Part shown: in pieces, positions 11,103 through 46,070 of the stretch
Layout: each line of letters begins with the position of its first letter
How positions within the stretch are numbered: position 1 is the stretch's first letter
Assembly (NCBI GenBank): GCA_035559535.1
Contig: DATMBG010000027.1
Span: 1 to 46,188, forward strand
Origin: Candidatus Limnocylindrales bacterium
Lineage (GTDB): Bacteria > Moduliflexota > Moduliflexia > Moduliflexales > JAUQPW01
Direction: 5' to 3'
DNA length: 46,188 bases
Notes under the pieces: generated by a model
What the model saw: only the letters and a program-made list of their open reading frames with translations
What the model was told of the DNA's origin: nothing
Databases searched by the model: none
Position numbers and translations under genes: made by a program

Positions 11103-13833
11103 CGTAATTGATATAGCCAGAGTCTTCTTTCATTATGAGAAAGAGGGAGACCCTCGCCTGCCCTCGAAGATCCTGTTACAACGACTGGAGAATCACACCG
11201 ACAATGTGGCTAAACTGGTTCAACTCTGGCAACGCGAGGCCTCCGACACCGATCTTGTACTTCACCCCGACACCGAACAAAAGGTCGTGGCCGCGGCCAG
11301 GCTCCATGATGTAGGAAAACCCCAACGGTTTACCCTACAGGCCAGGACACGTAAACAAAGGAAAAACGGCCGGGAAACGGAAATCTTTGAAGGGTATGAA
11401 TACTCCTTTCGGGGGCATCGGTTCCTTGCCGAGCACGAAGACCTTTACGTTCAGGAGCTCGCACAGGGCCATCACACCTATACGGTTCAAGATATTAATG
11501 AAGCCATAGTTCGGTTGCGGCAGAATGGTTATCCTACCAGTCGATTCGCCCGGGATCTTTACATCCTGGAAATGTGCGATCAGATCGAAGCGGAAATCGC
11601 CGTCCGCACGCTGGAGGGTGTTACAGAAGGTCGAACGTTCATGGAATTCACAGTTATCCCGGGGGACCCTTTAACCTACCATCTTGACCCCTACCCTTTT
11701 ATCCAGGAAGAGATTGACCTTACCCTGGAGTACTACGAACTGGTTTTATCCGAGGAACAAAAAGCAGAGCTACTAAACCTGAAGTTAGAAGAACCTGAAC
11801 GGATCGCTCAAGCCCTTGGAGAGTTCATCGTAAATTTCTTTAAAGAAATAAATCGTCCGGTTAAACAAACAATGATTCGCATAAAGCCTCTTATTCCTGA
11901 AATATCATCTCAGCCTGGTCGCTATGATTGTGAAACCTTTTACCTGGAAATCTGTGGTTTTACCCCCTACGAAATGCAACAGGTTCTTTTCAACCATCTG
12001 GCTACGGGCGAAGATGCTTTACTTTTGAGAGCCCCGACCGGATCTGGGAAGACCGAGGCCGTGCTGATTCCATCCCTGGCTTTGGGTAAGCGATTGATCC
12101 TCCCCCTTCCCACACGGAGTTTGATTGAGGATCATGAGCAGAGGATCCAGAAGTACCTTATGAAATTTTCAACCTTATCCCAAAACAAAGATCGTCCCAT
12201 AGCTTTGATCGTAGACACCGGTGAGACATCCCGTAGGTATGTGTTCCGGAATGGTGAAGCCGTTGAGTTCAGGTATGGTAGCCAGGTACTACCTTATGAA
12301 AAGCGCCATCTTTACAAGGCTGAGGTCATTTTAACGACCCTGGATAAGTTTCTTTATCGGTACTTCGGTTTTGGGGACGTCCATAAATCCTTCATTTATC
12401 CGCTTCGTATTCAGGATGGAGCCCGTACCCTCATCTGTTTCGATGAAGCCCATACGTATGACGGAGTATCCTTTATTAATTTCCGCCGGCTGGTTCGAGC
12501 GCTTTATGAGTCAGGGCAGGGTGTGGTGGTAATGACTGCAACCCTGCCAGAGGCCTACAAGAAGGAGATAGACTTCCTTAAAGAGCTCGATTATCTGGAG
12601 GTTTCAGAACCTCCGAAACGCAAACTCACCGTGGTGGAATCCAAACACAATGATCTATCAGACGCCCTGGTCGAACAAACCGAAAGGCTGTGGAGGCAGG
12701 GAATTCATAGAATCATCGTTGTGGCCGAGAGCGTCGGTTTTCAGGCCGAGATTCAAGACAGTCGGCGGCGAGCCCTTCGGGACGGAGTTTTCAACGTCTA
12801 TGAGAAACTAAAGGGGTTAGTGGTCCAAGAAAAACTACCGGACCTCATGGCCCGTAAGAACCTTCTGCTTTATCATGGAAGGATGGATGGTATCGAGCGG
12901 GCCCGGGTTTATGAGAAGCTCAAGAAGCTGGATGGGAACAAAGACGGCCGATACCTCCTTGTAACCACCAGTGCCATCGAAGTGGGTTGTGATCTGAATG
13001 CCCAGGCCTTGGTAACCGAGATTTGCAACCCCGAGCAGCTTATTCAACGGGTGGGTCGTTGCAATCGAAGGGCTGACTTTGAGGATGCTGAGGTTGTCGT
13101 GGTACTGCCGAAGGAGCTGTATTCTGACAGGGGTTGGATAAAACCCTACGTGCGTTCCCTGAGTATCGAAGAAGAAGCCTGTTATATAGAGTATTTGAAG
13201 CAGGTAAGTGGAAACCTGCTCGATCTTAAAACTTTAAGGGAAAAGATAGCCAGGCGTCCGGCCATAGACTATCGCGTAGAGACCCTCTTCGAGCTGCTGG
13301 CCGAGTATGTCTACGAAGCCCGTCTTGAAAACAAGCCCATCCACGATCGCGGGTTTGTCGTGACACGGAGTTGGGAGCCTACGCTGACCTTTGAGATTCC
13401 GTTTGATGGGGAAAAGCGTTATGTTTCGGTTCCCTTTAGTTTATGTGTTTGTTCCAAGGATGAGCAACCGGAACCGGCCGCGCTGATACAGGAAGTAGTT
13501 TACTCCCACGATACCAATCGGGAATTCAGGAAGAAACTCTCCGGGGGACCGGTTTATGGAAAGCAGGTTATCGTTACAATAACGGAAGGATTCGCTCAAA
13601 GCAATTTCAAATATGACCCTGAGTATGGTTTGGTAGATGTGCCAAAGGTCTTCACCTGTTGGCGCACTGATTATAAGGTACTTATGCAGGTGGCAGGTGA
13701 TGGGGCTTACAAACCTGTTATCTGGTATTTCCGGGATCTTCCCGATAACGGCTATTTTACCGGCTATCTCGAAGGAATGGTAACCGAGGAAGAGGTAGTC
13801 GAAGAAGAAACCGAGGAGGAGGAAAGGGAATGA
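11095..13833 (+). CDS. cas3: Cas3 nuclease-helicase (HD plus SF2 helicase)
   Basis: 912 residues. The N-terminal HD nuclease has ENHTDNV, H71-D72 in ARLHDVGK, FRGHRFLAEH, QGHHTY and a distal Asp (EMCDQIE). The SF2 helicase follows: Walker A APTGSGKTEA (313-322), DEAH (450-453), TATLP, and QRVGRCNR (651-658). Cas3 is recruited by Cascade to unwind and degrade target DNA. The fused HD is the arrangement of types I-B, I-C and I-E. Canonical I-D instead puts HD on Cas10d, as at 36800 in this window, so this system is not standard I-D although its Cas7 is Csc2-like. GAGGAG precedes the ATG. The last four bases overlap the CARF gene. The C-terminus is a Glu-rich tail. Confidence 0.92.
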   Translation: MNNVIDIARVFFHYEKEGDPRLPSKILLQRLENHTDNVAKLVQLWQREASDTDLVLHPDTEQKVVAAARLHDVGKPQRFTLQARTRKQRKNGRETEIFEGYEYSFRGHRFLAEHEDLYVQELAQGHHTYTVQDINEAIVRLRQNGYPTSRFARDLYILEMCDQIEAEIAVRTLEGVTEGRTFMEFTVIPGDPLTYHLDPYPFIQEEIDLTLEYYELVLSEEQKAELLNLKLEEPERIAQALGEFIVNFFKEINRPVKQTMIRIKPLIPEISSQPGRYDCETFYLEICGFTPYEMQQVLFNHLATGEDALLLRAPTGSGKTEAVLIPSLALGKRLILPLPTRSLIEDHEQRIQKYLMKFSTLSQNKDRPIALIVDTGETSRRYVFRNGEAVEFRYGSQVLPYEKRHLYKAEVILTTLDKFLYRYFGFGDVHKSFIYPLRIQDGARTLICFDEAHTYDGVSFINFRRLVRALYESGQGVVVMTATLPEAYKKEIDFLKELDYLEVSEPPKRKLTVVESKHNDLSDALVEQTERLWRQGIHRIIVVAESVGFQAEIQDSRRRALRDGVFNVYEKLKGLVVQEKLPDLMARKNLLLYHGRMDGIERARVYEKLKKLDGNKDGRYLLVTTSAIEVGCDLNAQALVTEICNPEQLIQRVGRCNRRADFEDAEVVVVLPKELYSDRGWIKPYVRSLSIEEEACYIEYLKQVSGNLLDLKTLREKIARRPAIDYRVETLFELLAEYVYEARLENKPIHDRGFVVTRSWEPTLTFEIPFDGEKRYVSVPFSLCVCSKDEQPEPAALIQEVVYSHDTNREFRKKLSGGPVYGKQVIVTITEGFAQSNFKYDPEYGLVDVPKVFTCWRTDYKVLMQVAGDGAYKPVIWYFRDLPDNGYFTGYLEGMVTEEEVVEEETEEEERE

Positions 13834-15086
13834 ATTCCCAGGCCTTACAATCTGCAAAGACCGGGCATTTGTTCCTTCTGGTCGGGGGTAACCCCCTGCC
13901 CAACGCGGTGGCAGGTAAGCTGCTTACCGCGCCAGGCGGAACGATTACCCTTATCCACTCAGGAGGTGCTGCGGGCACAGCCAAAGTCGCGCAAAGGCTA
14001 TGCAAGTGGTTGAAGGAACAAGGAGTTACCCAGTCTGTGGAGTTAAAGGAAGTCGGAGAATCCGACCCGACTTCCATTGTGGCTGGAGCACAGGAACGCC
14101 TCAAAGCCATCAAGGCTCAACGGGTAGGTCTCAACTATACAGGGGGTACAAAGGCCATAGCGGTGCATGCCTATCGCGCAGTGGAGCAGTGGACCAAAGA
14201 AAAAGGCATCACGCCGGTGTTCAGTTACCTGGATGCCCGCACCTTGCAGATGGTATTTGATCCCGCTGCCGGTGGTAACGAACAAAGGAAAAGGATCTAT
14301 ATCGGGCGAGCGTTGGAATTAAAGCTGACCGATTTGCTGGCCCTCCATGGGTGGACGCTTAAGCACGAGCCAACAGAGATCCCGCTGTTTCCTGCTACGG
14401 CTCATGCTTTGGCAAGAGTATGTGCGAACGACGGGGGATTCAAAGACTGGAAGCAGTGGATTGAGGAAGAATTTCGCCCCAAGTGCCGACGCCCGGATAA
14501 AGAGGATTGGAAAAACAAGACTCAATTGCAAGCTGTTTCTTTGATCCTGCCCACAAGCAGCTCTCTGAGCGAAGTTGTTCAATCGCTGCGCGCCGAGCTC
14601 AAAGTACCTCAAGGTGACCTGGGACTCGCCCATGGCGCTTTTGGAAACGAGCCAAAGCGGTTTTGTGAGTGGCTCTACGGTAAGTGGCTGGAACATTATG
14701 TTCTGGACATACTGAATCAGTTAGCAACTCAGCTCTGTCTGCACGAATGCGCACAGAATATCGTGCCTAATGAAGTAGAGTTTGACGTGGACGTGATGGC
14801 ACTGCGAGGTTATCAACTCTTTGCCTTCTCCTGTTCAACAGAAAGTAAGAAGAATTCGCTTAAATTGAAACTCTTCGAGGCCTACATACGCGCGCGACAA
14901 TTGGGCGGCGATGAAGCCCGTGTTGCGTTGGTCTGTTGCAGTGATGACCCGGATGGGTTGGAACACGAAATGCGACGCGATGTTGACCCTGAAGGACGCA
15001 TCCGTGTCTTTGGACGTAAGCACCTGCGTGATTTGACCGAACATATCAAGACCTGGATTCAGTCCCAAAGCGGAGAGGAGGGATAG
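13830..15086 (+). CDS. CARF-domain nuclease (Card1/Can2-like), ancillary type III effector
   Basis: 418 residues. The N-terminal half is a CARF domain: LVGGNPLP near the start and NYTGGTKAIA (N102-K108), the loop that binds cyclic oligoadenylate. The C-terminal half looks like a PD-(D/E)xK nuclease of the DUF1887/Card1 kind: WLEHYVLDIL, EVEFDVDV (E315 to D321), FAFSCST, then KLKLFEAYIRARQLGG. The usual Lys right after the last strand is not in the plainest position (SCSTESKK), so catalysis should be checked. In type III immunity Cas10 makes the ligand and such proteins then cut nucleic acid non-specifically. The ATG overlaps the cas3 stop (ATGA), physically joining the type I and type III modules; cas10 starts four bases after its stop. 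Confidence 0.8.
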   Translation: MNSQALQSAKTGHLFLLVGGNPLPNAVAGKLLTAPGGTITLIHSGGAAGTAKVAQRLCKWLKEQGVTQSVELKEVGESDPTSIVAGAQERLKAIKAQRVGLNYTGGTKAIAVHAYRAVEQWTKEKGITPVFSYLDARTLQMVFDPAAGGNEQRKRIYIGRALELKLTDLLALHGWTLKHEPTEIPLFPATAHALARVCANDGGFKDWKQWIEEEFRPKCRRPDKEDWKNKTQLQAVSLILPTSSSLSEVVQSLRAELKVPQGDLGLAHGAFGNEPKRFCEWLYGKWLEHYVLDILNQLATQLCLHECAQNIVPNEVEFDVDVMALRGYQLFAFSCSTESKKNSLKLKLFEAYIRARQLGGDEARVALVCCSDDPDGLEHEMRRDVDPEGRIRVFGRKHLRDLTEHIKTWIQSQSGEEG

Positions 15087-23751: not shown

Positions 23752-26298
23752 ATGCGAATCTCTATAAAAATAGGTTTTCTGGAAGATCTTGCAAATTCAC
23801 AGCCCGACATTGGGCTTGAGTGTCAAAAGCTTCTAAGGTTACTCCAAAAAACCGATGTGAGCAAATTGCAGGGTCAGGCCCCCACATTCTCTGGCTGGCG
23901 TTTGTATAAGTTAAGGTATTTTCCCTTTATACTGTTTTCACACCCTGGAAATCTCGCAGTTCTAGCCAAACTCGAAGGAAATCTTGTTTCCATATACCAC
24001 ATTTTAATTTTAAGCGATAGCAGGTGGCAGCCGCTAAGCGCAGTAAAAAAGGCACAACATAAAGCGGAGGAAGAAGCTCAAAAGAGAATTGAAGAAGAAC
24101 AACGGCGGCTTGAGATGGAGCGAGTGCAACTTAACCAGGAACAACGAAAAGTCGAGGAAGCACGTCAAAGAGTAGAAGAAACACGCAGGCAATTGGAAGA
24201 AAAAGCACGACAACTTGATCAGGAACGACGAAAGGTCGAGGAAGCGCGCTGCGAGGTGGAGGAAATACGGAAACAATTAAAAGAAGAAATCCAGCGTAAA
24301 GCAGAAGAGGAAGCACAGCAAAGGATTGAAGAAGAACAGAAAATCGAAGAGAAACCCGAACAATTAAAGGGGGGAAGGTATACTCCACTTGATCATCGAC
24401 CTCCTAGAAGATATGCAAGCACGGAAGAACATCCTGAGAAACCAGTATTGCGAGAGCCAGGACTACGGCGTCCGAAACCCGAGATCATCTGTTTGAAAAG
24501 GGCACGCCAATGGATTCTGGCCGTGGAGATACCGGTAGATCTTCTTGAAAACCCCGGTTTGACGGTACTTCAAAATGAATCACCTCTCCCGCAAGATGAA
24601 TCAGATGAAAATTACCGGTGTCTTAAAGAATTTCATGGACAGGTCGTGATCCGTTGGGAGGAAGATGGGAGTACGAGGGAGCGGCATACTACCTTTGGTG
24701 AAGAAGGCTATCTACTATTTAAACTGAATAATCAAAATGAAGGACGCTACATCCGGTCTCCTTCATTTGGATCCTATCTGGCCGTGGTTCCGGATAGTTG
24801 GGAACGTGATTTTGAGCTTTCGGGACCGCCCCCCATAGCACCGGAGCCCGTTTCCTTAGAGGGCTATCAGGCTCATTTCTATATCCTTGAGAAAGGCGAT
24901 GGCAAAAAGATCGCTTTTCGCAGCCAGGAGGGCAAGTCGGTTATAATCCAGCCCAGAGCATCCCGATTCGAACTGGTTGGGAATCTTCTAAACGATGCGA
25001 ATGAAGCTATGGGTCCTTTATTTGGAGAGAAACCCCCCCGAATCCGCTCTTTAGACGACCGCCTCCAATGGAAAGATATTGGGACCATCGTTATTGGGGA
25101 GGAGGGAATCAGAAAATTAGGATGGACCAGGCTGTTGAGTCTCGACCCAGACACTCAGGAACAGGACCTGCCTTCTGAAGTTACAGAACGGGGCGATGGC
25201 TGGTATTTTATCAGGATTTACAATCTGAAGGATGAGCTTTTAGAGAGTTTAGACTTCAGATTTATCCCCGCCTTGAAGGCTATTAGAGTACCTCCACCCT
25301 CTCCGGTTCCTACTAAGGATGGACATGAGCCTACACGGGTTGAATTCCTTCACCAGCCGGGGTGCACAGTTCAACCGTCCCGTCAATTAGAAGAGCTCGT
25401 CCAGATCGAGCGTGGAGATAACAGGACGGTACTGACCCTTCCTGCCAATCCTAACTATGATAAAACCGATTGGTTTATAAGTTCTCGAGGCACGTGTCAG
25501 ATACAGGTTACCATTCTTGTGGAAAGACTCTGGTGGGCCATTGGAGAAGAAAGCCAAATACCCTCAGAATGGAAAGCTCAAAAACTTCCTCTTACCCGTG
25601 AAGATTTCCTGGCCACATCAAGGAAAACGTTGTGGCTGAGACTTCCAAAACCACGTTGGGCAGATAAAGCTTTTGTTGGATTTAAAGAAGCAACAGCCGT
25701 ACCTTGTCCTATAAAAGTTACAGAGAGAACCATCAGTATCCCGTTACGACAGTTCTGTGATGCACAGGAGATCCAAAATATTGGCACAATTTTATTTAAT
25801 TTTTGGATTCACCATAGGGGTACAAAGTATCAAATAACCACCTGCAAGCTTACACTCAAAGCTAATTGTAGACTCTGTGAATTCTCAATTTCTACAGAAG
25901 AAGATCTATGGGATCATATTAAATCCGATCACCTGGACGCATGCTTTCGACTTTTGACTTCCGAGGAAACCCATGAAAGAATACAGGATCAAGACTCTGC
26001 TCTTCCAAGAGAAATATATAAGTGTTCTCATTGTAATTTCTATGTTGAATCCGATGATCCGAGAAATCCAACCACTGTCATGGACCGACACAGCAAAGAG
26101 AAATCTCATAAAGCAGGAGCTCCTTTAGAAATTAAAATTCTTTCTAAACCAGATGAAATCCGAGAGGTTCTCTCCAAAAACCCCCCCCATCTTTATGAAT
26201 GCAAGTGGTGTCGTTATCTTTTACGTAACGCTATTCCAAGAGATAGGATAGGGCATTTGAGGGAAAACCATAAAAATATGCTTTACGTGTTTCAATAA
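23752..26298 (+). CDS. Coiled-coil protein with three C-terminal C2H2-like zinc fingers
   Basis: 848 residues; family not recognised. Order: a small N-terminal domain (1-95); a charged coiled coil (about 100-205) containing a 28-residue, four-heptad tandem repeat beginning QLNQEQRKVEEAR and QLDQERRKVEEAR; a beta-rich middle (about 240-700); then three zinc fingers. Finger 1 is C706/C709/H722/H727 with classical C-x2-C-x12-H-x4-H spacing. Finger 2 is C758/C761/H780/H786. Finger 3 is C817/C820/H835/H840. Tandem C2H2 fingers are rare in bacteria and suggest DNA binding or partner contact. The helicase gene starts 17 bases after the stop, so the two probably work together. It begins 34 bases after the last cas gene with no clear ribosome-binding site, so it may ride on the CRISPR transcript. 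Confidence 0.7.
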   Translation: MRISIKIGFLEDLANSQPDIGLECQKLLRLLQKTDVSKLQGQAPTFSGWRLYKLRYFPFILFSHPGNLAVLAKLEGNLVSIYHILILSDSRWQPLSAVKKAQHKAEEEAQKRIEEEQRRLEMERVQLNQEQRKVEEARQRVEETRRQLEEKARQLDQERRKVEEARCEVEEIRKQLKEEIQRKAEEEAQQRIEEEQKIEEKPEQLKGGRYTPLDHRPPRRYASTEEHPEKPVLREPGLRRPKPEIICLKRARQWILAVEIPVDLLENPGLTVLQNESPLPQDESDENYRCLKEFHGQVVIRWEEDGSTRERHTTFGEEGYLLFKLNNQNEGRYIRSPSFGSYLAVVPDSWERDFELSGPPPIAPEPVSLEGYQAHFYILEKGDGKKIAFRSQEGKSVIIQPRASRFELVGNLLNDANEAMGPLFGEKPPRIRSLDDRLQWKDIGTIVIGEEGIRKLGWTRLLSLDPDTQEQDLPSEVTERGDGWYFIRIYNLKDELLESLDFRFIPALKAIRVPPPSPVPTKDGHEPTRVEFLHQPGCTVQPSRQLEELVQIERGDNRTVLTLPANPNYDKTDWFISSRGTCQIQVTILVERLWWAIGEESQIPSEWKAQKLPLTREDFLATSRKTLWLRLPKPRWADKAFVGFKEATAVPCPIKVTERTISIPLRQFCDAQEIQNIGTILFNFWIHHRGTKYQITTCKLTLKANCRLCEFSISTEEDLWDHIKSDHLDACFRLLTSEETHERIQDQDSALPREIYKCSHCNFYVESDDPRNPTTVMDRHSKEKSHKAGAPLEIKILSKPDEIREVLSKNPPHLYECKWCRYLLRNAIPRDRIGHLRENHKNMLYVFQ

Positions 26299-26315
26299 AG
26301 GAGTGAGGATTTCTA

Positions 26316-29300
26316 ATGGATCTCATAACGTTATCCCAACGAATTGAAGAGAGATATCGGCATTATCTCAAAACCACCTTTTATTTTAAGGATCCAGATC
26401 TCCGGGCATCTTTTGAAGAAGCCCTTCAGTCAGGATATTTGAGCAAAGGGCCGTACCTTGAGGCTACTCCCGTTTTCCAGCGGGCCCAGAGGCCAAGAGA
26501 TCTGTTTCAGAACCTCCTTGGATTTGAGCCTGATGAAGCACTCTTGAGGGCCGTGCAGGGAGATAGACCCCTTTACCGACATCAAGAAGCCGCCATTCGA
26601 GGAGCCTTTGAAGGACGTAATATCATTGTGGCCACAGGAACAGGAAGTGGTAAGACCGAGTCTTTTCTTTATCCTGTCTTGCTTCACCTTTACCGAGAAT
26701 TTCAGTCCGGTCAATTGGGTCCGGGGGTGCGGGCTTTGATTCTCTATCCCATGAATGCTCTGGCAAATGATCAGCGGGAGCGTTTGGGTGAAATTTGCAA
26801 ACAGCTTGAATACGAGAAATCATCCTTCAGAGTTACCTTCGGACAGTATATCGGAGAAACACCGGAAGATGAAAACGACACCCGACGTCGTGCCGTCGAG
26901 CGCCTGGCAAATCGGCTACCCGGCGAGCTGGTTTTACGCTCTGAAATGCGAAGCCAACCTCCCCATATTCTGCTCACCAACTACTCCATGCTGGAATATC
27001 TACTGCTCAGGCCGGATGATAGTCCCCTCTTTGATCATGGACGTGCTCGATGGTGGACGTTCCTGATACTCGACGAAGCCCATCAATATCGAGGCTCGAA
27101 GGGTATTGAGATGGCCATGCTCCTGCGACGCCTCAAACAGAGACTCAGAGAGGGTGGGCGTCTGGAGCCTTTTCGGTGTATTGCAACGAGCGCCACGCTG
27201 GCTGAAGGAGAAAAGGATCGTGAGGCTGTGGCAAAGTTTGCCTCTAACCTGTTTGGTGAGGAATTTTGCACGAAAGACGTAATTCTTGGAGAGACTGAAC
27301 CCATCCCAGAGTCAGGGATAGAATATCTTCCCGCACATGTTTATGGACTTCTACGGGAAGCCCTGCAGGGACGAATTCCAGAAACCAGGAACCAGCTTGC
27401 CGGGTTGGCGAATAGACTGGAAATAGATCTCCCGGATAGCGAGGATTTATCCTATACGGTTGGAAGGATTCTGCAACACGATATTCGATCCACGAAGCTA
27501 CGTCGTCTTATTACAGGCAATCCTATGGAAGCTCGGGAAGTTGCCGAAGAGGTCTTTGCTGACCTGTCGGATACAGAACGCGTACCTGCCCTATCTGAAT
27601 TGATTGAGCTTCTCCTCCAGGCAAGAGATCCTGCTTCCCATGCCCCGCTCTTATCGGTACGCTACCATCTGTTCTTACGTTCGCTTGAAGGCGCATTTGT
27701 TTCCTACTGGCCGCAAAAGAAGGTCTTCCTGGATCGTAAAGGGAAGGATCAGGAGATTAAAGCTTTTGAAGTTGCACTGTGTCGGGAATGCGGTCAACAC
27801 TACTTTATAGGCCCAAAAAATCTCAAAGGTGGTAAACTGGAGGAAGCGATCCGCGACCCGGGTCAAATTGATTTTGGAGCTACTTTCTTACGCCCCCAAG
27901 AGGATCGTGAGGAAGATGACATAGAGGAGGATTATAGTGGGGTTGTCAACAGACAGATACTCCAGCTTTGCGTTCAGTGCGGCGAGATAGGACGAAGTAA
28001 ACCAGGATGTAACCATGACAATTTAATCCAGGTAGTCCAGGAAGAATCTCCAAAGGATGAAGATAGAGCCGATCAGGTAGCGAAGTGTGGCGCTTGCGGA
28101 TACAGTGCGGCCGGTCGTGATCCTGTGAGAGAAGTAATCCATGGAGCCGATGGCCCCAATGCGGTTATTGCTACAACTCTTTATCAGAGCCTTCCAGAGA
28201 AACGGAAAAAAATACTGGCATTTACCGATGGGCGTCAGGAAGCCGCCTTTTTTGCCTGGTATCTTGAAGATTCCTATAGAGACATTCTGAACCGCAACTT
28301 GATTTTGAGGGTGGTTCAGAGGCTGAGTCCCCATGTATCGGAAGGTCTGTCCCTGCGAGAACTGGCTACAAACCTACGAGATCTCTTTATAGAGAGAAGG
28401 ATTTTTCCTCCTACCACAGGTAGCTTAGACTTGAGCCGTGAGGCCTGGCTGAGACTTTATCGGGAGTTTCTCACCGATGAATCGAGAATTTCCTTAGAGG
28501 GCGTGGGTCTGGTTCGGTGGCTGGTAAAATGGCCAGTCTGGTTCCAGATTCCTGAGATTCTCAGGAATCCCCCCTGGTCGTTAACCGAACAAGAAGCCTG
28601 GGATTTACTATTTATTCTCCTGGATTTTATGAGGGCCGAAAGGGCCCTTGAACTTCGAACTGAGCCGGGTATTTCCGTAAATTGGAGTGATCTTAAACTC
28701 CAAGGAGGGCAAACTCGGGTTCGAATCGGTGAACCTAAAAAGCAAAAGGATGTACGGAGCTGGGATGGAAAAACGGGACGGCGTGCCCAGTTTTTGACCA
28801 GGCTTCTGATAAGGAACCATCTTTCCATAGATCAGGCAATCCCTTGGGCTATTGAAACTCTGAGAGCAATCTGGGAAACTCTTAAAGAATTTGATCAGTC
28901 AGCTTCTCCCCAAGACCGTTTACTTCTTCCTGTTGAAGATGCCCGGAGGCTTAATCCCGATTGGTGGAGAGTGCATCTCGTTACCCAGCATCATAAAATT
29001 TTCCGATGTGACAGGTGTGGGCGTCTTCAGACCGTATCGGTTCGTAGAGTCTGCCCAAGGCCTCGTTGCCTGGGCACGCTTAATGGGATACAACCGGATA
29101 ACCTTGAGCCTAATCACTACCGTTGGTTATATGAAGAGGATCTAGCCGGTCCTATGCGCGTGGAAGAGCACACCGCACAATTGGACCATGGGAAAGCACG
29201 GGAATTTCAGGATGAGTTCAAAGAAGGTAGAATCCATGTTCTGAGCTGTTCTACAACCTTTGAAGTGGGTGTAGACTTAGGGGATCTCGACACCATCTTT

Positions 29301-30977
29301 CTCCGCAATGTACCGCCGGAGGCCTTTAACTATGTACAGCGGGTGGGTCGGTCGGGACGCCGGAGTGGGTCTCCTGGATTTGCTATTACCTATTGTCGTC
29401 GCGGACCCCACGACCTTTATCACTTTGCTGAACCCAGGCGCATACTGAGTGGTAAGGTTCGACCTCCTGTGTTGAGTCTACGAAATGAAAAGATAATTAC
29501 TCGCCATATCACGGCAACCGCCTTATCTTATTTCTTTCGAAACTTTAAGGATAAGTTCAAGACCGTTGAAAATTTTTTCAATGACCTAAGTCATCCTTCG
29601 GGTGTTGCCGACTTTAAAACTTTCTTAAATGAGCAGGAAGCTAACCTTAAGAAATCTTTACAGGCTATTGTTCCACCCGAAATAGCGGGCCGGGTTGGCT
29701 TAGAGAACAAAGATTGGATGGCAAAGGTTGCCGGAGAGAAAAGTAGACTGTTTCTTGCTGAAGCGGAGGTTTCCAGTGATTATCAAAACGTGATTGAGCT
29801 TGAAAAGAGTGCAAGGGAAAACAGAAATTATCGAACTGCCGAATGGGCCCGGAAGCGAGCCGATACCATTGCTAAAGAGGAGTTTCTTTCGTTTCTTTCC
29901 CGTAAGGCCGTGATCCCCAAGTATGGCTTTCCGGTAGATGTGGTGGAACTAGATACACAAAGTATTCAGCATGGCGAAGCGAAGGAAATTTCCCTCCAGA
30001 GGGACTTAGCCATTGCCGTTTCTGAGTTTGCCCCAACGAGCAAGCTGATTGCCAACAAAAAGATATGGACTTCCTACGGGTTAAAGCGGGTTGCCGGGCA
30101 GGAATGGGATCGCTGGTGGTATGCCCGGTGCCCCATCCATAACCGTTTTGAACGTAAACCCTGGCGGGATGAAAAACGGCTGCCATCTTTTAATAAATGC
30201 TGTGCGCATATGTTTCCCGCACAGTACCTCGATCCGAGATTTGGCTTTGTGACCAATCGAGAGAAACCGGAAGAGCCTAAAAGGCGACCCGATAAGGTCT
30301 TTACCACGCGGCCCTACTTTGCAGGTTTTAAAGACAAGGAAGGCAACCCGATTAACTTTGGAAGTATTCGTTTAACGACGGCCACCCCCGGTTATCTGGT
30401 GGTGCTTTGCGAAGGCCGCCGTGGGAGAGGGTTCTACATCTGTGAAAGATGTGGTGCTGGATTTCAACAACCCAAAAAGAAACATGAGACCTCCTACGGG
30501 AGTGAATGTTCCGGAACGCTGGTACAGGTTTCTCTGGGGCATGAGTTTGTCACGGATGTACTTCAGCTTCAGTTTCATGCCAAAACTGAAGAGGCTACAC
30601 AGCCCGTCTGGTTCGCATACTCATTGGCTTATGCCCTGGTCGAAGGGGCTGCCTCAGAAGTCTTAGAGGTACCCTCTACGGATCTTAACGCAACCGTAGC
30701 CTATAGTAGTCAGACAGATTCTCTACCTCCCATTATCCTCTACGATAATGTACCGGGTGGAGCAGGCCTTGTCGCCCAACTGGAGAAAAAAGAAATGCTT
30801 CAAGCCTGTCTGGAAGCTGCCTGGAAAAGGGTTAGTGGGAACTGTGGCTGCGATGAGGGTACGAGTTGTTATGGATGTTTGAGAAGCTACCGAAATCAGT
30901 TCGCCCATCCCTATCTTCAACGGGGTCCTGTCCTGCGTTACTTGAAAACTATGCTCTTGGAGTGGGAAAGTGATTAA
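26316..30977 (+). CDS. Giant SF2 helicase with DUF1998/MrfA-type C-terminal cysteine cluster
   Basis: 1553 residues. The helicase core has Walker A ATGTGSGKTES (A106 onward), DEAH (253-256), SATLAEG and QRVGRSGRRSG (from 1008). The C-terminus has ILYDNVPGGAGL followed by C1510-x-C1512-x5-C1518-x2-C1521, the four-cysteine motif of DUF1998/MrfA-like helicases. More CxxC pairs lie between the helicase halves (CRECG, CVQCG, CGACG, CDRCG, CERCG). DUF1998 helicases occur in DISARM, Druantia and Dpd systems and in MrfA DNA repair; this length and the zinc-finger partner match none of these cleanly. It probably translocates on DNA. AAAGGAG precedes the ATG. A broken fragment of a close relative lies at 32007-32112. 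Confidence 0.85.
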   Translation: MDLITLSQRIEERYRHYLKTTFYFKDPDLRASFEEALQSGYLSKGPYLEATPVFQRAQRPRDLFQNLLGFEPDEALLRAVQGDRPLYRHQEAAIRGAFEGRNIIVATGTGSGKTESFLYPVLLHLYREFQSGQLGPGVRALILYPMNALANDQRERLGEICKQLEYEKSSFRVTFGQYIGETPEDENDTRRRAVERLANRLPGELVLRSEMRSQPPHILLTNYSMLEYLLLRPDDSPLFDHGRARWWTFLILDEAHQYRGSKGIEMAMLLRRLKQRLREGGRLEPFRCIATSATLAEGEKDREAVAKFASNLFGEEFCTKDVILGETEPIPESGIEYLPAHVYGLLREALQGRIPETRNQLAGLANRLEIDLPDSEDLSYTVGRILQHDIRSTKLRRLITGNPMEAREVAEEVFADLSDTERVPALSELIELLLQARDPASHAPLLSVRYHLFLRSLEGAFVSYWPQKKVFLDRKGKDQEIKAFEVALCRECGQHYFIGPKNLKGGKLEEAIRDPGQIDFGATFLRPQEDREEDDIEEDYSGVVNRQILQLCVQCGEIGRSKPGCNHDNLIQVVQEESPKDEDRADQVAKCGACGYSAAGRDPVREVIHGADGPNAVIATTLYQSLPEKRKKILAFTDGRQEAAFFAWYLEDSYRDILNRNLILRVVQRLSPHVSEGLSLRELATNLRDLFIERRIFPPTTGSLDLSREAWLRLYREFLTDESRISLEGVGLVRWLVKWPVWFQIPEILRNPPWSLTEQEAWDLLFILLDFMRAERALELRTEPGISVNWSDLKLQGGQTRVRIGEPKKQKDVRSWDGKTGRRAQFLTRLLIRNHLSIDQAIPWAIETLRAIWETLKEFDQSASPQDRLLLPVEDARRLNPDWWRVHLVTQHHKIFRCDRCGRLQTVSVRRVCPRPRCLGTLNGIQPDNLEPNHYRWLYEEDLAGPMRVEEHTAQLDHGKAREFQDEFKEGRIHVLSCSTTFEVGVDLGDLDTIFLRNVPPEAFNYVQRVGRSGRRSGSPGFAITYCRRGPHDLYHFAEPRRILSGKVRPPVLSLRNEKIITRHITATALSYFFRNFKDKFKTVENFFNDLSHPSGVADFKTFLNEQEANLKKSLQAIVPPEIAGRVGLENKDWMAKVAGEKSRLFLAEAEVSSDYQNVIELEKSARENRNYRTAEWARKRADTIAKEEFLSFLSRKAVIPKYGFPVDVVELDTQSIQHGEAKEISLQRDLAIAVSEFAPTSKLIANKKIWTSYGLKRVAGQEWDRWWYARCPIHNRFERKPWRDEKRLPSFNKCCAHMFPAQYLDPRFGFVTNREKPEEPKRRPDKVFTTRPYFAGFKDKEGNPINFGSIRLTTATPGYLVVLCEGRRGRGFYICERCGAGFQQPKKKHETSYGSECSGTLVQVSLGHEFVTDVLQLQFHAKTEEATQPVWFAYSLAYALVEGAASEVLEVPSTDLNATVAYSSQTDSLPPIILYDNVPGGAGLVAQLEKKEMLQACLEAAWKRVSGNCGCDEGTSCYGCLRSYRNQFAHPYLQRGPVLRYLKTMLLEWESD

Positions 30978-31358: not shown

Positions 31359-31691
31359 TCATATTGGATACGCGGTTACGAAGCGAGGACGGTTTTGACC
31401 TGCGTCAATGATCCAGACTGTTTGTATCCGTACGGTGCCCCCTCCCGGGGTTTGGAGTGCTCCTTCAAGGATATATTTTATGCCGTGTGGTGACGAAGTT
31501 GCTTCTTTAACATCTTCGGAACGAGCAATGGCTATTAGGCCTTGCTCCAATATGTTTATATTTGTTTCATCGAAGCCAAGGGTACGGAAGAACCTGGCTT
31601 TCGATCTACCAACAGGGTGTGTTTCCGATAATAGATAATCTCTCAATTTTGACGGCGAAATGTAAGCACTTTCCCGATTAGGGAGCTTCAT
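31359..31691 (-). CDS. DUF6883-domain small protein
   Basis: 110 residues with the DUF6883 pattern: AYISPSKLRDYLLSETHPVGRSKARFF at the N-terminus, GIKYILEGALQTPGG in the middle, and VRIQTVWIIDAG ending VTAYP. The fold is thought to be toxin-like in several databases, but no activity can be read here. It is first of a two-gene minus-strand unit with DUF4926. The start codon has only a weak purine-rich upstream sequence. Such cassettes are common in mobile defence islands, consistent with its position between the helicase pair and the type I-D locus. Confidence 0.75.
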   Translation of the reverse strand: MKLPNRESAYISPSKLRDYLLSETHPVGRSKARFFRTLGFDETNINILEQGLIAIARSEDVKEATSSPHGIKYILEGALQTPGGGTVRIQTVWIIDAGQNRPRFVTAYPI

Positions 31692-32006: not shown

Positions 32007-32112
32007 CGACTAATGCCATGCTGGCCGAGAGAGAAAAGGACCATGAGATCGTGGCAAGGCTTGCCTCTGACCTGTTGGTGAGGAATTTTGCACGAAAGAT
32101 GTAATCCTTGAG
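32007..32112 (+). pseudogene. Broken fragment of a DUF1998-type helicase gene
   Basis: About 106 bases closely match 27184-27290 inside the intact helicase (the SATLAEGEKDREAVAKFASNLFGEEFCTKDV region). A perfect shared run of about 19 bases, GGTGAGGAATTTTGCACGA, lies in the second half. The copy has a one-base deletion (CCTGTTGG for CCTGTTTGG) and several substitutions, so it cannot encode protein. It shows that a second copy, or a homologue, once stood here. Confidence 0.8.
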
Positions 32113-44976: not shown

Positions 44977-45124
44977 GGGACAGCTCCGAAGAATGAGTGA
45001 GGAAGTACAACAGTAACGGGAGATTCGGACGAGATTAGAAAAAATTCTTCGCATCCCGGTGAAGCTTGAATGAACAAAGAGGAGCGGGAAGAACGAGGTC
45101 AACGTCCGAGGGCTGCTGCAGACC

Positions 45125-45152
45125 GTAGGGGCGCAAGGCCTTGCGCCCGTAC
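45125..45152. repeat. 28-bp palindromic repeat
   Basis: GTAGGGGCGCAAGG and CCTTGCGCCCGTAC. This and the copy at 45230 are identical over 27 bases. Confidence 0.9.
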
Positions 45153-45229
45153 ATGGAGATAGCCTGAATAATTTTCTGAGTTTCTTAGATAACCATTATT
45201 TGCAGGAATTGAGGCGGAAGATGATCAAC

Positions 45230-45256
45230 GTAGGGGCGCAAGGCCTTGCGCCCGTA
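45230..45256. repeat. 28-bp palindromic repeat (27 bases matched)
   Basis: Same sequence as 45125-45152 except that the last C is replaced. Confidence 0.9.
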
Positions 45257-45379
45257 AGTTAGATAGGTATAGGCTGCTAGGCAAGTACGTGATGATCGGG
45301 GTGGATGGGACGCGCACCGTGAGTTTTAGACAGCACCACTGCTTAGAGTGCTTAACTCAGAAGTTGACCTAAGGACGGA

Positions 45380-45407
45380 GTACGGGCGGGAGGCCTCCCG
45401 CCCCTAC
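45380..45407. repeat. 28-bp palindromic repeat inside the transposase remnant
   Basis: GTACGGGCGGGAGG and CCTCCCGCCCCTAC; stem sequence differs from the 45125 type but both arms changed together. Confidence 0.9.
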
Positions 45408-45632
45408 TTCTACGGTGCTGGAAGCTAAGATCCTCTATTCCAATGGGATGTCGATAGGGACGGAGTTTATAGGGGAGCCCCCCTTTCCCCTATATCCCCC
45501 CCCTTCAAGCCCAGAACAACTTTTACCTATTGATGCAGATCGGACGCCTGATTAACCAGTTGGTGGAGAAGGGGAGTTTAGTGAGGGAGGTGTTTAAGGG
45601 GAATATCCTGAGCCTGAAGACCTTTATTGAAC

Positions 45633-45660
45633 GTAGGGGCGCAAGGCCTTGCACCCGTAC
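45633..45660. repeat. 28-bp palindromic repeat
   Basis: As the 45125 unit with one arm mismatch (GCACCC for GCGCCC). It interrupts the end of the transposase remnant. Confidence 0.85.
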
Positions 45661-45746
45661 TTGGTTTCGCAGGTGAAGAGTGCTTGGATGTCCTGGGAGA
45701 GGTGGAGTCGGCAAGATGCGAGCAGGTTCCAAATCCGGTTAGATAC

Positions 45747-45774
45747 GTACGAGCGGGGGGCCCCCCGCTCGTAC
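45747..45774. repeat. 28-bp palindromic repeat, perfect
   Basis: GTACGAGCGGGGGG and CCCCCCGCTCGTAC: a perfect palindrome over all 28 bases, with a stem unlike the others. Confidence 0.85.
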
Positions 45775-45817
45775 ACCCAGGGATCCCCCTCAGTTGAGAA
45801 AGTGGAAATGAGGTTGA

Positions 45818-45845
45818 ATAGGGGTGGGAGGCCTCCCGCCCGTAC
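45818..45845. repeat. 28-bp palindromic repeat
   Basis: Left half ATAGGGGTGGGAGG, right half CCTCCCGCCCGTAC. Last copy before the right edge. Confidence 0.8.
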
Positions 45846-46070
45846 TTGCTGTAATAGTCTCCGTTTAATGCTTAGAAATATTTTTAATTGAAGGCCTTGT
45901 TTGGTTTTAGAGGTTGCCTTTTGTTCATTGGTTTTGGGATTGCTTGCAATACGTGTTATCTTTTATTTATTCGTCGCTGCTGTTTAAGGGAGAAATTTCT
46001 TGACAGTTTTTAACCGAATTGGTAAGGAAGCGGACATTGAGTAGGGGATTACTGATCTTTGCATAAATAT

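Follow-up and report, generated by a model that had tools for sequence, protein, structure and literature searches.

A Druantia-lineage helicase and its modular zinc-finger partner, a candidate two-component antiphage system located in a CRISPR island

Two adjacent genes on one whole contig of 46,188 nt, which is called the window throughout, probably encode a two-component antiphage system of the Druantia kind, and we put the probability of this reading at roughly 60%. Judged from sequence comparison, the product of gene 1 would act as sensor or specificity partner of the helicase encoded by gene 2, and a system of this type was absent from the literature searched. The phylum of the source organism is represented by four genomes in our collection. 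The original prediction had placed two genes 17 bases apart at this position; both open reading frames were confirmed (Table 1), and the gap contains an AAGGAG-type ribosome site.

Table 1. Features of the two genes, with positions counted in the window.
Feature	Position	Strand	Description and evidence
Gene 1	23752..26298	+	848 aa, modular protein, sensor/specificity candidate; ORF
N-terminal part, residues 1-96	23752..24039	+	alpha-alpha-beta-beta-beta-beta; AF2 secondary structure, pLDDT 30-49
Long coiled coil, residues 95-194	24034..24333	+	single continuous AF2 helix; tandem repeat, 84-nt period
Beta-rich core (suggested Ig-like tandem), residues 239-700	24466..25851	+	conservation, AF2, Foldseek
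Core domain 1, residues 239-405	24466..24966	+	AF2 pLDDT 93.3, pTM 0.88
Hypervariable C-terminal module	25670..26250	+	sliding window: 55-69% DNA identity to sister
Zinc finger 1, start residue 706	25867..25932	+	C-x2-C-x12-H-x4-H
Zinc finger 2, start residue 758	26023..26109	+	C-x2-C-x18-H-x5-H; C2HC in homologues
Zinc finger 3, start residue 817	26200..26271	+	C-x2-C-x14-H-x4-H; BED-like in L037 homologue
Gene 2	26316..30977	+	1553 aa, Druantia-lineage YprA-family SF2 helicase; ORF, PADLOC, Pfam, tree
RecA1 / DEAD domain	26577..27206	+	PF00270; motifs ATGTGSGKTE, DEAH
RecA2 / Helicase_C core	29151..29363	+	PF00271; motif VI QRVGRSGR
MrfA Zn-binding / DUF1998 module	30636..30881	+	four-cysteine cluster CGCDEGTSCYGC; PF09369, motif

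We aligned four gene 1 homologues and scanned 84,980 species genomes with this alignment, which gave seven loci: one in a sister species and the other six in as many lineages (Thermodesulfobacteriota, Chloroflexota, WOR-3, Omnitrophota, an unclassified groundwater bacterium and an Eubacteriales MAG). The two genes are adjacent in five lineages: in the sister and at L036, L038, L040 and L041, a helicase 50-88% identical to gene 2 lies at most 20 bases downstream of gene 1 or overlaps it. Gene 1 of L036 is cut or truncated at the contig end. The Chloroflexota contig (L037) stops just past gene 1, and no helicase of the clade was found in the rest of that genome; in Omnitrophota (L039) gene 1 is not followed by a helicase, and none was found in the whole genome. 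Separate searches of 385 genomes with the two proteins placed the clade helicase in four genomes and full-length gene 1 in exactly those four, and the pair was absent from two relatives of the source in the same order. The loci number about eight in all, mostly in MAGs and some on short contigs. The search of plasmid and phage collections for gene 1 gave no match, and neither did the helicase, the gene 1 alignment or the phage-like domain described below in the viral contigs scanned. Initial matches to the gene 1 coiled coil in distant genomes were dropped as low-complexity chance.

The protein encoded by gene 2 had been described as a 1553-residue SF2 helicase with a C-terminal four-cysteine cluster, and this was confirmed. 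Pfam gave DEAD (PF00270), Helicase_C (PF00271) and the MrfA Zn-binding domain MZB/DUF1998 (PF09369), and helicase motifs I, II (DEAH) and VI are all intact. The protein ends about 30 aa past the cluster CGCDEGTSCYGC and thus carries no fused C-terminal nuclease. Twenty-four cysteines are invariant across five homologues. The helicase pieces showed a dN/dS of about 0.15 against the sister species, indicating purifying selection. The sister helicase contains two frameshifts, which are likely an assembly error, since the contig name gives a coverage of about 1.5x.

Among the PADLOC models for DruE, gene 2 scored highest on DruE1 (E=6.6e-185, 616 bits) and reached 479 bits on DruE2. In calibration, a true type I DruE scored 2332 bits on DruE1 and a true type III DruE 2181 bits on DruE3, and both scored roughly 330-650 bits on the models of other types, so the maximum of gene 2 is at the between-type level. 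Of the solved relatives, the nearest is a helicase chain of 2108 aa (251 bits), and the repair helicase YprA reached 79 bits. In a maximum-likelihood tree of 28 helicases, rooted at midpoint and sampled from the Druantia I and III, ARMADA and cyanobacterial groups, the window clade formed a separate group (100/100) within the Druantia side. The cyanobacterial, type I and type III groups made up its sister side (89/95), the type III and III-B-like helicases formed one 100/100 group with the window clade outside, and ARMADA-type proteins split off apart (100/99). The helicase had been likened to those of DISARM, Druantia and Dpd; the shared DUF1998/MZB module stands, but from the PADLOC scores and the tree the protein is assigned specifically to the Druantia/ARMADA lineage of YprA helicases.

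Gene 1 had no Pfam or NCBIfam family above cut-off, and its sole PADLOC match (E=0.0011) lies inside the coiled coil and is a chance match. No nuclease family and no CARF or SAVED model of PADLOC matched it. The predicted long coiled coil was recovered as one AF2 helix, and the three C2H2-like fingers, one of them with classical spacing, were also confirmed: three fingers did not arise in any of 20,000 shuffles of the residues of the window protein, and four further homologues, namely the sister, L036, L037 and L041, have fingers at the same three positions (in L041 the middle one is read from the alignment). Both features had been used to name the candidate pair. They are present here, but the fingers are replaced in other homologues, and the coiled coil, like residues 1-96 (dN/dS 0.12), is confined to the window genus. 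The predicted topology of residues 1-96 had prompted a RelE-like reading, which was rejected because the confidence was too low and Pfam was blank.

Going by its conservation, the part that defines the family is the core, the large middle that had been left unassigned, and not the zinc fingers. This core is kept in eight homologues, with the motifs V.GEEG and GW.F.R.Y...L..S.DFRF invariant together with the charged residues E365, H375, E450, E451, R488, D501 and R503, and its AF2 pLDDT is about 80-90. The full gene 1 model matched tandem Ig and complement macroglobulin structures in Foldseek (E down to 1.8e-6). The TM-score of these matches is only about 0.1, so their domain arrangement differs from that of the core, and the model suggests an Ig-like core at low TM-scores. 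Structure search with core domain 1 alone found no confident known fold.

The ends of gene 1 are variable. At the front, the L037 homologue has an Mrr_N winged helix (E=1e-12), and those of L038 and L041 have hydrophobic helices resembling membrane anchors. At the back, zf-BED was scored in L037 and fell just under the cut-off in L036, and the L039 and L040 homologues end in unrelated tails. In WOR-3 a ribosomal-S9 domain (L038:11408-11767, E=6.9e-17) is fused C-terminally in place of the zinc fingers. Gene 1 as a whole is under purifying selection against the sister species (dN/dS 0.31), and it outpaced its helicase in divergence in 10 of 10 pairwise comparisons. The finger module has a dS of 1.12, compared with about 0.3-0.5 in the remainder of gene 1, and its flanks (the rest of gene 1 minus the coiled coil, and the helicase start) are mostly 80-94% identical to the sister. 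We read this divergence as the mark of module replacement or of very rapid change.

The setting had been described as a CRISPR island, and cas genes of types I-B, III-D and I-D indeed lie on both sides of the pair. Gene 1 begins 35 bases behind the final RAMP gene of the III-D block and is encoded on the same strand; in the sister species the island recurs with identical gene order. However, no CRISPR array was found in the window, and no cas gene was noticed within 9-21 kb of the pair in L036, L038, L040 and L041. Since other lineages show no cas genes beside the pair, the island is its local setting only and not part of the two-gene system. Known defence genes lie beside the pair in the window genus (cas) and in WOR-3, where a GmrSD-type restriction gene adjoins the pair, but no clear defence neighbour was seen beside it in L036, L040 and L041.

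Other elements were recorded in the window. WYL regulators lie upstream of the I-B and I-D blocks, a CARF-PDDEXK (Card1/Csx1-like) effector gene precedes cas10 of the III-D block (13830-15086), and a lone DUF6883 protein is encoded between the gene pair and the I-D block (31359-31691, minus strand). Seven copies of a palindromic GTAGGGGCGCAAGGCCTTGCGCCC-type repeat lie between genes (45121-45849, and also 6746 and 43441). Downstream of the pair lies a degenerate helicase-gene remnant (32015-32110, 84.5% over 97 nt), and the same intergenic region of the sister contig holds a different helicase remnant, inverted; from these distinct remnants, copies may have come and gone there.

Phage recognition by Druantia-type helicases is a subject of ongoing work. 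DruE engages 3'-tailed and ssDNA-containing replication intermediates, and its likely sensor is DruH (PMC13192584; see also PMC13316683), a protein with three Ig-like domains which diverges faster than DruE; DruH dimers nick DNA even though no nuclease domain can be recognised in them (PMC13192584). From the kinship of gene 2 with DruE, we take gene 2 as an ATP-driven DNA-translocating helicase and gene 1 as its dedicated sensor or specificity partner. The Ig-like beta-rich core of gene 1 would dock on the helicase. The swappable ends of gene 1, be they zinc fingers, an Mrr-type winged helix, an S9-like domain or a membrane anchor, would serve to recognise nucleic acid of the phage or to position the complex. 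Upon infection, gene 1 would set the helicase on replicating phage DNA, by loading or by release, and this DNA would be unwound, stalled or passed to host nucleases. Host nucleases, or a cryptic activity in the core, are invoked because neither protein has a recognisable nuclease. The physical complex, the defence function, the DNA target and this order of events are what we infer. With the same kind of helicase but a wholly different modular partner, the pair would allow sensing to be probed by swapping domains among homologues, and it would add a bacterial defence use of C2H2-type fingers.

The 385 genomes also yielded core domain 1 as a stand-alone protein of 178 aa (L062:9000-9536, G259:C23); over 158 residues it shares 47% identity with the L040 protein. 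Its contig is phage-like, with Erf-like annealing, exonuclease and RuvC-like genes, and the genome has no clade helicase. This protein may serve as a decoy inhibitor, or it may be a fragment that was captured; it is a candidate inhibitor of the system. We might speculate further on an immunity with exchangeable sensors, in which one Ig-like adaptor connects the helicase, which stays fixed, with exchangeable modules at the front and back that set recognition, and phages counter with a decoy of adaptor domain 1; this scheme is possible but doubtful.

The pair could instead be a strongly diverged Druantia III, in which gene 1 is a DruH changed past sequence recognition and the mode of action is exactly that of DruH and DruE. 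The gene order and tight spacing are the same, Ig-like domains are reported or suggested in both partners, the partner diverges faster, and most III-like helicases also have no nuclease (PMC12458937). We consider it improbable: hhalign of the gene 1 family against seven DruH proteins gave a probability of 0.1%, the PADLOC DruH models miss gene 1 but still match a divergent III-B-like DruH at 1e-20, and the helicase clade falls outside the type III group, to which a nuclease-free III-like member belongs. Equally improbable is an enzymatic role of gene 1, such as a cryptic nuclease seated in its beta-rich core, with the helicase only delivering DNA; the invariant charged core residues and the nicking by DruH (PMC13192584) are in its favour, but no nuclease family was matched.

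Explanations that take the pair out of Druantia-type immunity fit less. The position directly behind the III-D block, kept in the sister, would agree with the pair being the last part of the III-D operon and serving crRNA-guided or cyclic-nucleotide-triggered immunity, and a DruE-type pair at L067 is also near apparent type III genes (by eye). The four loci where no cas gene was noticed and the CARF/SAVED models that miss gene 1 make such an accessory role quite unlikely. A DNA-repair helicase of the MrfA/YprA kind with a zinc-finger loading factor, without a role in immunity, would account for the MZB module common to gene 2 and MrfA and for the missing nuclease. But gene 2 resembles DruE-type proteins far more than YprA proteins, the pair has a sparse occurrence (4 of 385 genomes, not in the two same-order relatives) scattered across unrelated phyla, and the partner is mosaic and fast-evolving, so we hold this reading to be very unlikely.

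We therefore return to the two-component system of the Druantia kind and compare it with described systems. The pair was not described in the literature searched; its clade may sit unlabelled in the supplementary tables of PMC12458937, a catalogue of YprA-family systems in which C2H2 fingers are unmentioned. With DISARM, Dpd and MrfAB it has the DUF1998/MZB module in common, but here helicase and DUF1998 are in one protein, and no methyltransferase/PLD, deazaguanine genes or MrfB lie beside the pair. No genes of TALON or BRIGADE (TPR-CSD, TBP, NERD, deazaguanine) were recognised there either. ARMADA types I and II use a YprA-family helicase of the same larger lineage; in contrast to them, the pair, judged from its neighbours in the window and at L036, L038, L040 and L041 and from the helicase length, has no BrxHII-like helicase, PglX-like methyltransferase partner or C-terminal Vsr nuclease, and the helicases branch apart.

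In Druantia I, the true DruE far exceeds the window helicase on the DruE1 model, even though this is the best model for gene 2. The DruA-D and DruM/F/G models matched neither gene 1 nor its homologues, and DruA-DruD found nothing among the ORFs beside the window pair. Two cyanobacterial plasmids (L006:4364-14240, L007:3513-14351) carry another, unassigned Druantia-lineage helicase clade with 898-aa and 310-aa partners, which match no PADLOC model; kinship of gene 1 with the 898-aa partner was rejected after a negative hhalign. The Druantia III-like or III-B systems (PMC12458937) resemble the pair in a DruE without C-terminal nuclease. One such example is a nuclease-free type III-like Druantia with a divergent DruH, beside apparent type III CRISPR genes (L067:3675-11450, G384, by eye); its helicase groups with type III (100/100) and its DruH is recognisable, neither of which holds for the window pair.

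Druantia III is the closest in plan: two adjacent genes, a large partner of non-enzymatic appearance followed by a DruE-lineage helicase, and a partner that is Ig-like (suggested here, reported for DruH) and evolves faster than the helicase. The window helicase differs in having no C-terminal PLD nuclease pair (which is optional in III-like members) and in forming a separate clade, and gene 1 differs in its zinc fingers and swappable ends and in lacking homology to DruH by profile, with no PADLOC DruH match in its homologues. The novelty claimed for the pair is accordingly narrower than proposed: the conserved, scattered unit with a partner not recognised by PADLOC stands, but the helicase is recognised as DruE. 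Because of this recognition we regard the pair as a new branch of the Druantia kind and not an unrelated system; on present comparisons the pair is Druantia-like in its helicase and new in its partner.
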